Assembly: GCA_938045315.1 (NCBI GenBank)
Contig: CALINM010000125.1
Coordinates: forward strand, 1 to 9,820
Source of the DNA: an uncultured bacterium
GTDB lineage: Bacteria > CALINM01
Reading direction: 5' to 3'
DNA length: 9,820 bases
Shown here: positions 3,506-9,820 of the stretch, piece after piece
Position numbering within the stretch: the first letter of the stretch is position 1
How the letters are laid out: the number at the start of each line of letters is the position of its first letter
Program-made: the position numbers and the translations under genes
The notes under the pieces: generated by a model
Databases searched by the model: none
What the model was told of the DNA's origin: nothing
The model's input: only the letters and a program-made list of their open reading frames with translations

Positions 3506-4588
3506 TTAAACCATTGTTATTGTGTGAATTGACATTGCTTTAAAACCTGCATAAACTGTGTCATTCAATTTCAACGATAAATCTATAAGTGAGGCTTTAG
3601 TTATATAGGATATTAGATCAAATCCGCAGTCTATTGTTACCCTATAGAAATGTCCAAAATCTAAAATTTCTACTATTTTTCCCCTAAAAATATTTCTTGT
3701 ACTTGTTTGAGATTCTATTAAATGCTTTGATATAAAAACATTTTCTGGTCTTATACATAACAAAACCTTATTTCCAATATCATAATCACCAACTCCTTCT
3801 ATATAGTTATTTTTAACCTGTGCGATGAAACTGCCGGATTTTTTTTGTATGATTATTCCTTCAATGATGTTTTCTACTCCTACAAAGGATGCTACAAAAC
3901 TATTAGCAGGATACTTTATAATATCTTCTTTGATACCTTTCTGAATAATCTTCCCTTTCTCTAAAACAATAATTGAATGGGAAAGACGTAAAGCTTCATA
4001 TTTGTCATGAGTACTCATGACAACTGTAATATTCTTTTCTTTCAAAACTTTTATCATATCAGTGATTATATCTTCCTTTGATAGAGAGTCTAATGAAGAA
4101 AAGGGCTCATCGAGGAAAAGTATCTTAGGTTCTATTACGAGTGCTCTTGCTATACTAACCCTCTTTGCTTCTCCACCAGATAATGTGTTTGCCTTTTGAT
4201 ATTTTAGATGTTTTATTTTAAACCTGCTAAGTATATCATCTACTTTTTTTTCTATTTTTGAGTGAGGAAGATTACGAAATTTAAGTCCCAGGGCAACGTT
4301 ATTATATACATTGTCATTTATTAATAAGTTTTCTTGAAAAACTATAGATATATGTTTTCTATACTCTGATAGGGGCATATCTTTAATCGATTTATCTTTA
4401 AAAAAAATAGTTCCATAGGAAGGCTTTAAAAGACCCGCCAAAGTTAATATGAAGGTTGTTTTTCCCGCTCCGTTTTCACCAATTATTGATGTAATACTAC
4501 CTTCAGATATTGTGAAGTTATCAATATTAATTATTTCTTTATTTGATTTTTTGATGGATAGATTTTTGACACTAAGAATATTACTCAT
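3506..4588 (-). CDS. tupC: Tungstate ABC transporter ATP-binding protein
   Basis: This 360-residue cytoplasmic ATPase powers oxyanion import through TupB. It has Walker A GENGAGKTT (37-45), Q-loop Gln85, signature LSGGE (136-140), Walker B ILFLDEP with D160/E161, and H-loop His194. A C-terminal region (about 235-360) looks like the TOBE-type regulatory domain of the ModC/TupC/CysA group, including CIRPENVFIS. The specificity call rests on the neighbouring tupA rather than on the ATPase itself, so molybdate or another oxyanion cannot be excluded from this gene alone. It starts inside the tupB stop (8 bp overlap), showing translational coupling. Its stop lies only 3 bp from the end of the convergent response-regulator gene, leaving no room for a terminator between them. 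Confidence 0.88.
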   Translation of the reverse strand: MSNILSVKNLSIKKSNKEIINIDNFTISEGSITSIIGENGAGKTTFILTLAGLLKPSYGTIFFKDKSIKDMPLSEYRKHISIVFQENLLINDNVYNNVALGLKFRNLPHSKIEKKVDDILSRFKIKHLKYQKANTLSGGEAKRVSIARALVIEPKILFLDEPFSSLDSLSKEDIITDMIKVLKEKNITVVMSTHDKYEALRLSHSIIVLEKGKIIQKGIKEDIIKYPANSFVASFVGVENIIEGIIIQKKSGSFIAQVKNNYIEGVGDYDIGNKVLLCIRPENVFISKHLIESQTSTRNIFRGKIVEILDFGHFYRVTIDCGFDLISYITKASLIDLSLKLNDTVYAGFKAMSIHTITMV

Positions 4589-5285
4589 ATCTCTTTACAG
4601 AAGATTGTTGGATTTTTGTTAAAATAAAGTTTATTGTTAAAGTTATAAATAGAAGTATTATCCCATAAGCAATTGCAAGATCGAAGTTGCCTCTGGAACT
4701 TTCAGTTACTGTTGCTGTAGTTAATACCCTTGTGTATCCTTTTATATTACCACCTACCATCATAGAAGCACCAACTTCAGATATGACAGCACCAAATCCC
4801 GCCATTATTGCTGATAAGATTGGTAATTTACACTCTCTTAGCATAATTAATAATAATTGAAATCTATTAGCCCCTAAACCAATTAGCTGTAGTATAAATT
4901 TATCAGGGAAGTTCTGGAATGCAGAAACACTAATGCCTAAAATTATAGGTGTTGCAAGTAGGGTTTGAGCAATTATTATTGCTGTGGGTGTGTACAAAAG
5001 GTTCCATGAACCAAGGATACCATTTCTCCAGAGAAGTATTGTAATTAAAAGACCTGCAATTACAGGTGGCATAGCCATTCCTGTGTTTATAAATGTTAAA
5101 ATAAATTTTTTCAGAGGAAACTCTTTTATGGAGATGACAAAGGCCAGAAATATCCCAATTATACCACTTATTAAAGATGAAAAAATCGATACCTTTAAAG
5201 AAAGAAAAATAATATCATATGTATCTTTATCAAAACAAACTAATAACTTTATTGCACTTTTTAAGGATTGAATTAAAATATCCAT
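4581..5285 (-). CDS. tupB: Tungstate ABC transporter permease
   Basis: This 234-residue integral membrane protein has roughly five or six hydrophobic segments (for example near residues 25-50, 60-85, 100-125, 155-175 and 205-225). The cytoplasmic coupling loop GLGANRFQLLLIMLREC and the following segments EVGASMMVGGNIKGYTR and ATVTESSRGNFDLAIAYG are characteristic of TupB-type permeases, which form the inner-membrane channel receiving tungstate from TupA. Length is normal for the family. The ATG at 5285 has AAAGG just upstream and sits 12 bp after the tupA stop; its own stop overlaps tupC. Operon order regulator-A-B-C with minimal gaps supports assembly of one transporter. Confidence 0.9.
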   Translation of the reverse strand: MDILIQSLKSAIKLLVCFDKDTYDIIFLSLKVSIFSSLISGIIGIFLAFVISIKEFPLKKFILTFINTGMAMPPVIAGLLITILLWRNGILGSWNLLYTPTAIIIAQTLLATPIILGISVSAFQNFPDKFILQLIGLGANRFQLLLIMLRECKLPILSAIMAGFGAVISEVGASMMVGGNIKGYTRVLTTATVTESSRGNFDLAIAYGIILLFITLTINFILTKIQQSSVKRYE

Positions 5286-5297
5286 ATAAAGCCTTTA

Positions 5298-6122
5298 TCA
5301 TTTGTCGACAAGATAAAATAGAGGTTCACCATATTCTTTTTTGCCGTAATATTTAATTATTTCTCTAACTTCTATGGAGTTAATAAAATCAATGAAAAGT
5401 TTTGCCCCTCTATTATTAACTTTGAGAAATTTTTCGGGATTTATTTCTACAATTGAGTAATAGTTCTTCAAAAAAGGGTCGTGTTCAATAAGAGGGTTTA
5501 GGTTGATAAGTGTTTTTTTCAAAGCAATGTACGTGCTCTTGTCAGAAAGGGTATATCCATCTTTTTCATTAGCAATTAGTAAAGTTTGTCCCATACCAGT
5601 TCCTGTTTCCTGATACCATTTTTCTCCAGAGGGATTTATTCCTATTTTATTCCATATAGATAATTCCTTTAAATGAGTTCCCGAGTTATCCCCCCTCGAT
5701 ATAAAAAGTGATCTATTTTTTGCAATTTTTTTAAAGGCTTCAACGATGTCCATATCTTTTTTAATTTTCGCTGGATTTGACTTAGGACCTAATAGTATAA
5801 AAGTATTGTACATAAAGGTTTTTCTATTCAAACCATAGCCTTCTTTTACAAGTTTTAGTTCTTCTTCTGGAGCATGAATTAATAAAATATCAACTTCACC
5901 TTTTTTACCTAATGCGATAGCCTGTCCTGTGCCAACAGCGATTGTTTTTACGAAATACCCAGTTTTTTTTTCAAAAACTGGTATAATTTTGTCAAGAAAA
6001 CCTGTATCCTGAACACTCGTAGTTGTTCCAAGTATTAATGTTTTATTGCTACTATAAGAAATTTTTGAGAAAAGAAAAGTTAAAAATAAAAAGATCAGGG
6101 ACATCAAAAATATTTTTTTCAC
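5298..6122 (-). CDS. tupA: Tungstate-binding periplasmic protein
   Basis: This 274-residue protein begins with a signal peptide (MKK, then a hydrophobic core to about residue 25), so it should act in the periplasm or be membrane-tethered; there is no clear lipobox Cys. GTTTSVQDTG (32-41) is the hallmark of TupA/WtpA-related oxyanion-binding proteins. VGTGQAIALGKKGEVDILL (63-81), SRGDNSGTH (142-150) and the TGMGQTL...DGYTLSD region also match TupA. The Thr/Ser-rich loops are expected to bind tungstate with high selectivity over molybdate in characterised members; here that is inferred from homology. The start codon is GTG, overlapping the modE stop as GTGA, so translation is coupled to the regulator. 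Tungstate uptake usually serves tungsto-enzymes such as aldehyde:ferredoxin oxidoreductase or formate dehydrogenase, none of which is encoded here. Confidence 0.9.
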   Translation of the reverse strand: MKKIFLMSLIFLFLTFLFSKISYSSNKTLILGTTTSVQDTGFLDKIIPVFEKKTGYFVKTIAVGTGQAIALGKKGEVDILLIHAPEEELKLVKEGYGLNRKTFMYNTFILLGPKSNPAKIKKDMDIVEAFKKIAKNRSLFISRGDNSGTHLKELSIWNKIGINPSGEKWYQETGTGMGQTLLIANEKDGYTLSDKSTYIALKKTLINLNPLIEHDPFLKNYYSIVEINPEKFLKVNNRGAKLFIDFINSIEVREIIKYYGKKEYGEPLFYLVDK

Positions 6123-6907
6123 GAAATTACCCCTAAAATTACATTAGATGCATTAAAAAGAGCGAAAACTTCATCATATTTCTTAAGTCCTATCGCTTTT
6201 ACACTGGTCTTTGAAATTATTGAAGTTATTGTATCACCACCTTGTGTAAGAATTGATACTTCAGCATTAATTGAACCTTCATTTATATTGCTCACCTTAC
6301 CAGGTAATATGTTGTCTGAGCCAATCAATAGGTTATTATTTTTTTTCATAACCATAATTGAAGACGCTTTTATTATGGCAATAATTACATCATGTAATTT
6401 AATTTTTAAATTTCTAAGACTTTCTTTTGTTATAGTCGCTTTGATATTTAAATTACCCTTCAATTCAAGCAGTATTTCGCAGTTAACAGAATCCTTTTTA
6501 ATGGATATAACTTTACCAACGAGCTGATTTCTTGCACTTGTTTTTAGACCCATAATTTTTATTAAACTATTAAAATCGCTATTTTTTAAATCCCTGCCTT
6601 TTAGAAAAATTCTTAAATGTTTCTCCATATTTCTAAAAAATCTAATTAATTCTTTTCCTCTTGTTGTAATTTTAGCACCACCACCTGATTTTCCACCTAT
6701 AGCTGTGATAATAAGGGGTTCGCCAGAAATACTATTCATCTCATTTATATAATCCCATGCTGTTTTGTAACTAATTTGCATTGCTTTAGCTGCTTTTGTA
6801 ATAGAACCAAATTTTTCTATACTTTCAAGAAGTTGAATTCTTCCAGAACCTAAAAAATGTTTACTATCTTTGTCAATCCAGATTTTGCCTGATATTTTCA
6901 GTGTCAT
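6119..6907 (-). CDS. modE: ModE-family molybdate/tungstate-responsive repressor
   Basis: This 262-residue regulator has an N-terminal winged helix-turn-helix (about 20-85), with GSGRIQLLESI, GSITKAAKAMQISYKTAWDYI and a Gly-rich GGKSGGGAKIT wing as in ModE. Two tandem Mop/TOBE oxyanion-binding domains follow: about 123-187, starting TSARNQLVGKV, and about 195-262, starting LPGKVSNI. That is the full ModE architecture. The start was set at the ATG at 6907 rather than the in-frame TTG at 6922, which lies within the -10 region. There is no convincing Shine-Dalgarno before the ATG, and the predicted transcription start is only a few bases upstream, so the message may be essentially leaderless. It is the first gene of modE-tupABC. 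Binding of oxyanion should cause repression at the palindrome that overlaps its own promoter. Confidence 0.9.
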   Translation of the reverse strand: MTLKISGKIWIDKDSKHFLGSGRIQLLESIEKFGSITKAAKAMQISYKTAWDYINEMNSISGEPLIITAIGGKSGGGAKITTRGKELIRFFRNMEKHLRIFLKGRDLKNSDFNSLIKIMGLKTSARNQLVGKVISIKKDSVNCEILLELKGNLNIKATITKESLRNLKIKLHDVIIAIIKASSIMVMKKNNNLLIGSDNILPGKVSNINEGSINAEVSILTQGGDTITSIISKTSVKAIGLKKYDEVFALFNASNVILGVIS

Positions 6908-6940
6908 AACCGCTATATACAATATTATATAACGGTTATG
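6905..6940. promoter_or_regulatory. ModE-box operator palindrome
   Basis: The arms at 6905-6919 (CATAACCGCTATATA) and 6926-6940 (TATATAACGGTTATG) are inverted repeats with 14 of 15 positions matching, separated by 6 bp. The core CGCTATATA-N6-TATATAACG fits the published ModE consensus as I recall it (CGnTATATA-N6-TATATAnCG). The only mismatch falls at the variable position. The site spans the -10 element and ends on the modE start codon, so occupancy should block both polymerase binding and initiation. Confidence 0.88.
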
Positions 6941-6951: not shown

Positions 6952-7530
6952 TTATTTAACTTCTCTTATTTCATAATCACCATTGTTGATGTAAATCTCG
7001 ACGGTTGTTCCACATCTTTGACAGGATAATTTATTATATTCCACTGGATTATTGCCAAAATTGATATCCCACCCACAAACAGGACAATAGAAAGTAACAT
7101 CTATTTGTTTATTTTTGATTAGTTCTATATATTTGCGAAATATGTTTAGATGTCCCATTTCAGCTTTTACAAGAGAGTTGTATAGATCTTTTAATACCGG
7201 ATCATTTGCAGCTTTTGCAAAGCCCTGATATACTTTTATAGCCCTCTCTTCGAAATCTAAATTTATTTCCATTAAAGCAAGAAGAGTTCGAAAACCATCA
7301 GGAGCATTTGCATCAGAAAATTGTTTTATTAGATATAAAGCTTTTTGTATATGTTCTTCTTCATTTCTTTTTATCCCTTCCAGTGTTCTATTTATGTTGG
7401 GGTCCTTTATAAGGGAGATAAATAGTTCATATCTTTTTGCAGCATTTAATTCTAAACTGAGAAAATAAATTAGATTTTTCCAGTCATCTTTTGTTAAATT
7501 TTTAATTTCTTCTCCACTTGTATACTTCAT
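6952..7530 (-). CDS. Rubrerythrin-like ferritin-fold protein with C-terminal four-Cys ribbon
   Basis: This 192-residue protein appears cytoplasmic (no signal peptide). The four-helix part (about 15-140) carries di-iron type ligands: E27 in helix 1, E57 with H60 (EEEH), E94/E95, and E124 with H127 (EMGH). The C-terminal part has C149-x2-C152 and C170-x2-C173, a rubredoxin-like or zinc-ribbon module. The layout matches the rubrerythrin/ferritin-like superfamily, which usually reduces peroxide in anaerobes, but the spacing is not that of classical rubrerythrin, so the substrate is uncertain. The ATG is preceded by a good AAGGAG ribosome site (minus strand, about 7538-7543). It shares a 63-bp divergent intergenic region with the secreted-protein gene at 7594. 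Its stop is 45 bp from the modE ATG, but modE has its own promoter. Confidence 0.82.
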   Translation of the reverse strand: MKYTSGEEIKNLTKDDWKNLIYFLSLELNAAKRYELFISLIKDPNINRTLEGIKRNEEEHIQKALYLIKQFSDANAPDGFRTLLALMEINLDFEERAIKVYQGFAKAANDPVLKDLYNSLVKAEMGHLNIFRKYIELIKNKQIDVTFYCPVCGWDINFGNNPVEYNKLSCQRCGTTVEIYINNGDYEIREVK

Positions 7531-7593: not shown

Positions 7594-8447
7594 ATGAAAA
7601 AAGTTAAGTTTTTAATTTTTGCTCTATTATTTTGTAGTACCGTATAGCTGATGAGTTTAATGATTTCTACTTAAAAGCGGAAAAGGCATCAAATGTATTC
7701 TATCCGAGATTAAAAAGCTATAAATGCGATGTTAAAACTTCTCAATTTGATATTATAATGAATAAGATGACTGCCTCGATGCCAGAAGATATACCAAGGC
7801 CTGAAAAGCCAGAAATTAAAAAAAACTGGCATTATAAAAAGGGCATGATAATAGTTCTGGAGGGCAAAAATGTGTTTCCCTATATGCAGGAATTTTCTAA
7901 AAAAATGTTTTCTCAATTTGCCTTGGAATTAAATGGTTTTTTCTTACCTTTCGATAAAAAGAGAGAAAGAGATTTAATTATAAAGGGGGCAAAAAAATAT
8001 ATAGAGAAAGGAGGGGATAATGTTTCATTAACTTTAGACTTTAACAATCCAATTTATGTGGATAGTTTATTCTATAAAACGGGGTTGCCTTTACCGGTTA
8101 AAGATGTAAAATTATTTAATATAGACAAAAATACTGGTTTAATTAAAAATATGCTTATTTCAGAGGGGAAAGATAGGGCCGTTAATTATGAGCTTAAAGT
8201 GGAATATGATAATAGGGATGGTCAATACTTGATAAGATATATGAATTTATCTACCGATGATGATTCATTAAGGGCAGAATTTAATACTGAATTTAGCAAG
8301 ATTGATGGGTACTATCTTCCTGCAAAACAAACAAGAGTAGTGGAGGGTAAAAACATTCCAGAGGAGCAGAAAAATATAACTGTTGAGTTTACTAACTATC
8401 TTTTAAACAAAAGAATACCTGAGAGAATCTATAAAAATGAGAGATGA
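7594..8447 (+). pseudogene. Putative secreted protein with apparent frameshift in the signal peptide
   Basis: A strong ribosome site AAAGGAGG (7581-7588) precedes an ATG at 7594 that encodes MKKVKFLIFALLFCSTV, a convincing signal-peptide start, and then hits TAG at 7645-7647. The neighbouring frame is open from 7638, directly after a TAG at 7635-7637. It encodes IADEFNDFYLKAEKASNVF and continues without a stop to 8447. Adding one base near 7645 would give ...FCSTVIADEF, a natural signal-peptidase junction. I therefore read one gene of about 284 codons broken by a single-base deletion, either real or a sequencing error. The first ATG in the body frame (7758) has no ribosome site. The body is rich in alternating beta-strand patterns (YELKVEYDNRDGQYLIRYMN, AEFNTEFSKIDGYYLPAKQT), somewhat like periplasmic LolA-type folds, but I do not recognise the family. 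Confidence 0.72.
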
Positions 8448-8592
8448 AAAACCAAATTTGAAGGATTTTGTTTCCAATATAAGAAAAAACGGATCCTGGT
8501 ACAGGAAAATTCATAGGATTTTAAAGAATAGCTTTATCAAACTAATTACTTTAAAAAATTGTTGTGGTCATCCAGGTGAGCCTGGTTGTTGA
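8437..8592 (+). CDS. 51-residue cationic Cys-rich miniprotein (CCGHPGEPGC end)
   Basis: The ATG at 8437 overlaps the end of the secreted-protein gene by 11 bp and the frame runs to TGA at 8590-8592. The protein is highly basic and helix-prone in the middle (RKNGSWYRKIHRILKNSFIK), then ends LITLKNCCGHPGEPGC with three Cys. I have an unverified recollection of short bacterial proteins ending in similar CCG-x-x-G-x-PGC motifs. The terminal cluster could bind metal or form disulfides; function is unknown. Evidence for a real gene: the overlapping start typical of this compact genome, the non-random C-terminal motif, and a hairpin just after the stop. The ribosome site is weak (GAGAGAA at 8421-8427). 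No signal peptide is evident. Confidence 0.6.
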   Translation: MRDEKPNLKDFVSNIRKNGSWYRKIHRILKNSFIKLITLKNCCGHPGEPGC

Positions 8593-8603
8593 CGAAAAGG
8601 ATG

Positions 8604-8621
8604 AATCACCCGTGGGTGATT
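8604..8621. terminator. Hairpin between convergent genes, possible bidirectional terminator
   Basis: AATCACCC (8604-8611) pairs perfectly with GGGTGATT (8614-8621) around GT; a four-base CGTG loop with 7 bp is physically likelier. It lies 11 bp after the miniprotein stop and 35 bp beyond the Rrf2 gene stop on the other strand. The plus-strand tail is AAAAGATTTT, so the U-run is delayed and weak. A terminator is the simplest reading; a protein-binding palindrome or repeat is possible. Confidence 0.45.
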
Positions 8622-9223: not shown

Positions 9224-9820
9224 ATTTTGGAATTCTTGTTAAGAAAAGTAAAGAAGCTGAAAAGTTCTCAAAAAAGTTAATTAGCTGGCTTAAAAAAAGA
9301 GACATTTTTGCTGAAGTGATAGAGCCTGAAAATCGCAATATTAAGATATATGATGTAATTGTTGTGATAGGTGGAGATGGAACACTTCTATATGCATCAA
9401 GGTTACTTAGAGGTGAAAAAAAACCTATTCTTGGTATAAACATGGGGGGACTGGGTTTTCTAACTGAGATTGCACCAAATGAAGCATTTAAGGCTGTAGA
9501 ATGTTTTCTAAGAGATGGTTGTAAAATAAGTGAAAGGATGATGTGTGATGTGAAGCTATATAGAAAGGATAAGTTAATAAAGTCATCCACAGTGCTTAAT
9601 GATGCAGTTATAACGAAGGGTAATTTAGCAAGGATGATTGATCTTGAGACATATGTTAATGATTGCTTTCTTAGTAAATATCGTTCAGATGGGTTGATAG
9701 TTTCAACACCAACTGGTTCAACAGCATATGTTTTGTCTGCTGGTGGTCCCATAATTGCACCTGATGTTAATTGTATAATAATATGCCCCATATGCCCCCA
9801 TACTTTGACACATAGACCTA
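9220..9820 (+). CDS. nadK: NAD kinase, 3'-truncated by the window end
   Basis: This gene encodes the ATP- or polyphosphate-dependent kinase that makes NADP from NAD in the cytoplasm. The visible 200 residues begin MNFGILVKK, contain the catalytic GGDGT (51-55), [12 protein letters not shown], the NAD-binding LND (N127/D128), [17 protein letters not shown] (TPTGSTAY at 163-170), SAGGPII and CPHTLTHRP, all hallmarks of NadK. The reading frame is intact to the last base. The ATG at 9220 gives the expected N-terminus, but no good ribosome site lies directly before it; AAGAGG (9190-9195) instead suits an ATG at 9203. The frame from 9203 encodes only MLKKMI and stops at 9221-9223, overlapping the nadK ATG. 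Translational coupling, or a one-base change in the A8 run, could explain this. Confidence 0.93.

Follow-up and report, generated by a model that had tools for sequence, protein, structure and literature searches.

Animal thioredoxin reductase has a C-terminal GCUG sequence. Among prokaryotic selenoproteins, a 'CU' selenocysteine (Sec, U) motif is listed for SaoC (NF040734) and MbdU (NF045648), and the Sec of SaoB, SaoC and UXX-star proteins has been suggested as a possible metal ligand (PMC13188914). The locus described here lies in a window of 9,820 nucleotides, the whole stretch of DNA that was analysed, from an uncultured bacterium. Judged by comparison with related loci, the best overall explanation is that the window encodes a selenoprotein, and this is considered very likely.

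On the forward strand, 51 codons run from an ATG at position 8437 to a TGA ending at 8592 and encode MRDEKPNLKDFVSNIRKNGSWYRKIHRILKNSFIKLITLKNCCGHPGEPGC. The frame occurs as a single copy in the host genome (1.86 Mb, 244 contigs), in which a search for a 16S rRNA gene gave none, and can be read past this TGA on to position 8604. Its start overlaps the 3' end of the preceding gene, as the sequence-only reading had stated (Table 1). A second genome of the same genus encodes MSNRPNVKWFLTNLKTPMPLKEKIFKLFKNNLIKIFTLKNCCGHLGEPGC at locus L002, which is 50% identical to the window protein. The gene order there is the same as in the window, namely a secreted protein, the small gene and a convergent Rrf2 regulator, and the overlap is identical as well. 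With this homologue and the many loci that share its ending (see below), the frame can be regarded as real, as had been proposed. A tblastn-type search with the window protein detected the same-genus homologue only, weaker matches being noise. The product of the preceding gene matched no Pfam family. Compared with an intact 285-residue homologue in L002, this gene carries a frameshift close to the signal peptide (window 7594-7760), owing to an error in the assembly or to real decay.

Table 1. Features of the putative selenoprotein gene and its upstream neighbour (positions in the window).
Feature	Position	Strand	Basis
Predicted selenoprotein CDS, 55 residues: MRDEKPNLKDFVSNIRKNGSWYRKIHRILKNSFIKLITLKNCCGHPGEPGC-U-RKG, then stop	8437..8604	+	sequence and homologues
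Predicted helix 1 (residues 8-16) and helix 2 (residues 21-38; basic and amphipathic)	8458..8550	+	AlphaFold2, hydrophobic moment
Conserved motif C-C-G-[HN]-x-G-[EQD]-P-G-C	8560..8589	+	family alignment
Predicted UGA selenocysteine codon (U52)	8590..8592	+	family codon counts and host Sec machinery
Arg-Lys-Gly tail, C-terminal to Sec	8593..8601	+	sequence; family tail coding signal
TGA, probable true stop codon	8602..8604	+	sequence
Predicted bacterial SECIS hairpin AATCACC-CGTG-GGTGATT	8604..8621	+	loop begins 18 nt past UGA, MFE -8.0 kcal/mol
Preceding gene, secreted protein, function not assigned	7594..8447	+	3' end overlaps selenoprotein gene start

A degenerate scan of 84,980 species genomes for C-C-G-[HN]-x-G-x-P-G-C with TRR as the next codon revealed at least 115 loci, which belong to about ten phyla. 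They encode basic proteins of ~45-60 residues with a CCG[HN]xG[E]PGC ending and the consensus RPSxxxFFTNLxxPMPLxxKLxLLxRNNxIKIxxRQxCCGHxGEPGC. Among the matches listed, most belong to Chloroflexota (61) and Actinomycetota (21); others come from Thermodesulfobacteriota, Myxococcota, Nitrospirota, Gemmatimonadota, Armatimonadota and further phyla. CCG, G, PGC and Sec are invariant in the family. Conservation among the matches listed extends to positions outside the search pattern (N-21 88%, P-32 82%, K-28 75%, K/R-17 93%, E/Q/D-4 96%). The C-terminal Cys motif had been suspected to be selected rather than random, and the homologue search, with its shared ending and conserved flanks, bore this out.

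A family profile was built from 55 members. Carriers were found with it in 22 of 201 genomes of Chloroflexota and in 20 of 198 of Desulfobacterota (~10%), and no convincing member was found in 384 unrelated genomes. True members scored between 27 and 91 bits in the carrier and phylum searches, chance matches in the unrelated genomes between 18 and 24 bits. L150 and L155 were rejected as chance matches of the profile, L031, L122 and L135 as chance matches of the pattern. No family member was found in viral contigs, phage records gave no nucleotide match to the window, and a protein search of plasmids gave no match. Some genomes have two or three family copies, which are arranged in tandem in the Chloroflexota loci L032, L044 and L047. 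L211 and L175, in which the reading frame has one more stop or shifts through the Cys motif, are apparently decayed copies.

The motif is directly followed by TGA in 156 of the 159 members listed, by the Cys codon TGC in three, and by TAA or TAG in none; the scan pattern admitted TGA, TAA, TAG and TGG and excluded TGY, so that the count of Cys forms may be too low outside the two phyla scanned with the profile. Neighbouring ORFs at the same loci end with 195 TGA, 135 TAG and 81 TAA, and with this stop usage 156 TGA would arise by chance with a probability of about 3e-51. In the profile-found set, which is unbiased at that codon, the ratio was 39 TGA to 3 TGC. A T directly follows the TGA in 1 of 156 members compared to 39 of 195 TGA stops of neighbours. 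The family thus shows the pattern of bacterial selenoproteins, with UGA at one conserved place, no other stops there and Cys in some homologues. This had escaped the sequence-only reading, which took the TGA as the end of the protein.

Past the TGA, the frame stays open for another 13 codons (median) before final stops of all three kinds (63 TAG, 61 TGA, 30 TAA). His makes up 8.5% of the tail residues in frame, and the two other frames give 1.9% and 1.7%. A clear His enrichment marks ~30 tails, such as ...MGPDESGPDSHHHHGDEDHHH in L113. Substitutions at codon positions 1, 2 and 3 amounted to 56, 46 and 102 in 31 related tail pairs, which are not independent of each other. From the in-frame His tails and the third-position bias it follows that translation passes the UGA. 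The three-codon tail of the window is uninformative by itself; the coding continuation is seen at the family level.

According to published rules, a bacterial SECIS element (bSECIS) has a loop of 3-9 nt with G in the first two positions, a stem of 4 bp or more, a spacing of 16-37 nt and an MFE of no more than -7.5 (PMC13188914). The window hairpin agrees with every one of them, and its stem is kept in L002 (ATCACC-GGCA-GGTGAT, MFE -12.0). Across the family, hairpin apices cluster 17-24 nt past the UGA. At least one of the first two bases of the loop is G in 142 of 155 members versus 99 of 192 controls, and stems of 6 bp or more are formed by 75% of members versus 13% of dinucleotide shuffles. 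Among 133 members there are 104 different stem sequences, which points to compensatory change. The bSECIS rules combined with a minimum stem length of 6 bp are satisfied by 112 of 155 members, compared to 39 of 193 neighbouring TGA sites and 15% of shuffles. With a 4-bp stem, the numbers are 140 of 155 members and 94 of 193 controls, and 15 of the 155 member hairpins deviate from the standard SECIS model even then.

Standard gene finding yields an ordinary UGA stop with a product ending in ...PGC, and the hairpin would then be a terminator or another 3' element. The short window tail and the position of the hairpin directly before the convergent gene would fit such a reading. It is nevertheless very unlikely, given the exclusive use of TGA among stop codons, the TGC replacements, the in-frame His-rich tails with their third-position bias and the frequent loop G; moreover, no T-run follows the window hairpin.

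The host genome contains genes for tRNA-Sec with the anticodon UCA (contig C168, 70 bits), SelB (C93, 358 bits), SelA (C133, 513 bits) and SelD (C10, 316 bits), the latter with an in-frame TGA of its own. SelB and/or a convincing tRNA-Sec was present in all 55 genomes with the TGA form that were examined (counted by hand). One case among the sampled carriers, G483, has a TGC-form member and is devoid of SelA, SelB, SelD and tRNA-Sec. L183 and L186, the two other Cys forms, reside in Sec-using genomes, and these two further TGC-form genomes (G563 and G414) have SelB. The co-occurrence of TGA form and SelB is weak evidence on its own. SelB was detected in 158 of 201 Chloroflexota genomes, and since it is frequent there anyway, the G483 case outweighs the correlation.

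The same distribution bears on the idea that the protein serves as a carrier or store of selenium itself, for instance to supply SelD. Carriers are Sec users, Cys versions are few, and the sole sampled carrier lacking Sec machinery has the Cys form. Yet the family occurs in only ~10% of the sampled Chloroflexota and Desulfobacterota genomes although SelB is common, and G483 retains its Cys form without SelD. A role as selenium carrier is thus improbable.

Taken jointly, the gene-level steps, i.e. UGA read as Sec under the guidance of a SECIS element to give a 55-residue product, are almost certainly correct as far as sequence comparison can tell. SelB and tRNA-Sec(UCA) would decode the UGA as selenocysteine with the hairpin guiding them. 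With the TGA read as Sec, the window product would therefore be MRDEK...KNCCGHPGEPGC-Sec-RKG rather than the 51 residues ending at CCGHPGEPGC that had been proposed; the motif becomes C-C-G-H-P-G-E-P-G-C-U plus a short tail. The product is predicted to be a cytoplasmic protein with two short helices and a flexible C-terminus CCGHPGEPGC-Sec-RKG. No signal peptide is evident. AlphaFold2 (42 sequences) returned two helices and a loose C-terminus at low confidence (mean pLDDT 63.8), and the second helix is amphipathic with a hydrophobic moment of 0.55. The basic helical segment noticed earlier is in line with this model.

No conserved operon was observed in the family neighbourhoods. The most frequent upstream neighbour was leuD (Aconitase_C, 4 of 81) and the most frequent downstream neighbour leuB (Iso_dh, 4 of 82), and the small gene therefore appears to act stand-alone. 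No Rfam match was found near the window gene. A precursor of a modified peptide (RiPP), one of the candidates of the sequence-only reading, or a Cys-sensing leader peptide would suit a short ORF with a Cys/Gly/Pro end, and selenobacteriocins are listed among selenoproteins (PMC13188914). However, conservation covers the whole length including the helix, and neither modification or maturation genes nor any downstream gene are conserved nearby. This explanation is accordingly highly improbable, while metal binding and redox activity, the other candidates, are still the best guesses.

Further genes were recognised in the window. A minus-strand gene at 6952-7530 encodes a rubrerythrin/ferritin-like domain fused to a C-terminal zinc-ribbon-like CPVCGW...CQRCG, and it adjoins the locus in the same-genus genome too. 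At 3506-6922 on the same strand, a ModE-like regulator with TOBE domains, a periplasmic anion-binding protein, a permease and an ATPase are encoded. Together they likely take up tungstate or molybdate, as would be fitting for a lifestyle that makes use of Sec (formate dehydrogenase). The NAD kinase gene at 9720-9819 is truncated by the contig end; its last residues are unlike NAD kinase, and the contig terminus is possibly misassembled.

Cys is found at position 2 in 27 of 117 members, while others have an N-terminal His or a His after the Sec. Cys2 and a His tail never occur together (0 of 18 versus 23 of 80, P=0.006; 98 members, kinship ignored), and this exclusivity may be phylogenetic in origin. 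Judged from the sequences, Cys2, the N-terminal His and the post-Sec His look like interchangeable extra ligands of a soft metal(loid) site, and metal(loid) binding or transfer is therefore favoured. Three Cys and one Sec, in many members together with His tails or an N-terminal Cys2, would make up a soft thiolate/selenolate site for the binding and handover of a metal or metalloid ion, and the basic helix would dock the protein onto a membrane surface or a partner. This combination of a Cys3-Sec site and basic-helix docking is proposed tentatively, at not quite even chances. The gene neighbourhoods gave no support for a metal function.

The main rival is a redox selenoprotein, in which the C-terminal vicinal Cys-Sec pair would form a selenylsulfide and relay electrons, in the manner of the GCU tail in thioredoxin reductase of animals. 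The Sec forms have an invariant Gly-Cys-Sec close to the C-terminus, selenoproteins are mostly redox enzymes (PMC13188914), and pyridine nucleotide-disulphide oxidoreductases occur as upstream neighbours (3 of 81). Such reductase neighbours are rare, though, and a redox relay does not require His tails or an N-terminal Cys2. Furthermore, no thioredoxin-like fold (UxxC or CxxU) or known redox domain was detected: there is no Pfam or PDB relative, two helices are predicted with low confidence, and the motif is CU. A redox function is thus rather unlikely. Returning to metal(loid) transfer, hardly any Cys versions exist, which suggests a need for selenium chemistry. The family might then represent a selenolate-based small metallochaperone, i.e. 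a near-obligatory-selenium, uncatalogued family with a minimal Cys3-Sec (plus Cys2 or His) metal/metalloid site on a helical scaffold of ~50 residues, a possibility put forward with caution.

None of the 55 members matched a model of NCBIfam 20.0 (June 2026), which includes SaoC, MbdU, KCU-star and CC/Se, at E 0.01. One of the 55 reached PF02754 (CCG Cys-rich domain) in Pfam at a marginal E of 0.0094; no model was convincing. The motif is in none of the 119 prokaryotic selenoprotein families and subfamilies of a 2026 review (PMC13188914), and literature searches with motif strings gave no relevant match. On this evidence, judged against the NCBIfam models and the review table, this is a new selenoprotein family within a class that is itself known. 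The scarcity of Cys homologues seems to be the reason why it was overlooked; this blind spot is stated for deep-Sep (PMC12013277) and implied for searches with Cys/Sec pairs (PMC13188914). A widespread selenoprotein family is thereby added that standard annotation misses or truncates exactly at the key residue; the gene had rightly been called easily missed. Being small and synthesizable, the protein offers a test case for what selenium does and sulphur cannot.

The window family shares the CU Sec motif with the Cys-Cys-COOH selenoprotein SaoC and the metal-binding double selenoprotein MbdU. It differs from both in its CCGxxGxPGCU sequence and its basic helical N-terminus; no sao-type neighbourhood was seen and no HMM match was obtained. 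A CU motif is also listed for the KCU-star family selenoprotein (NF033934, DUF466; PMC13188914), which has no sequence match to the window family. The hypothetical CC/Se motif family selenoprotein (NF041239), named for its Cys-Cys/Sec motif, is alike in this respect, but its motif is listed as CxxU (PMC13188914) and its HMM did not match. With ~55 residues and without a flavoprotein domain, the window family protein is unlike animal thioredoxin reductase, with which it nonetheless has the Gly-Cys-Sec at a flexible C-terminus in common.
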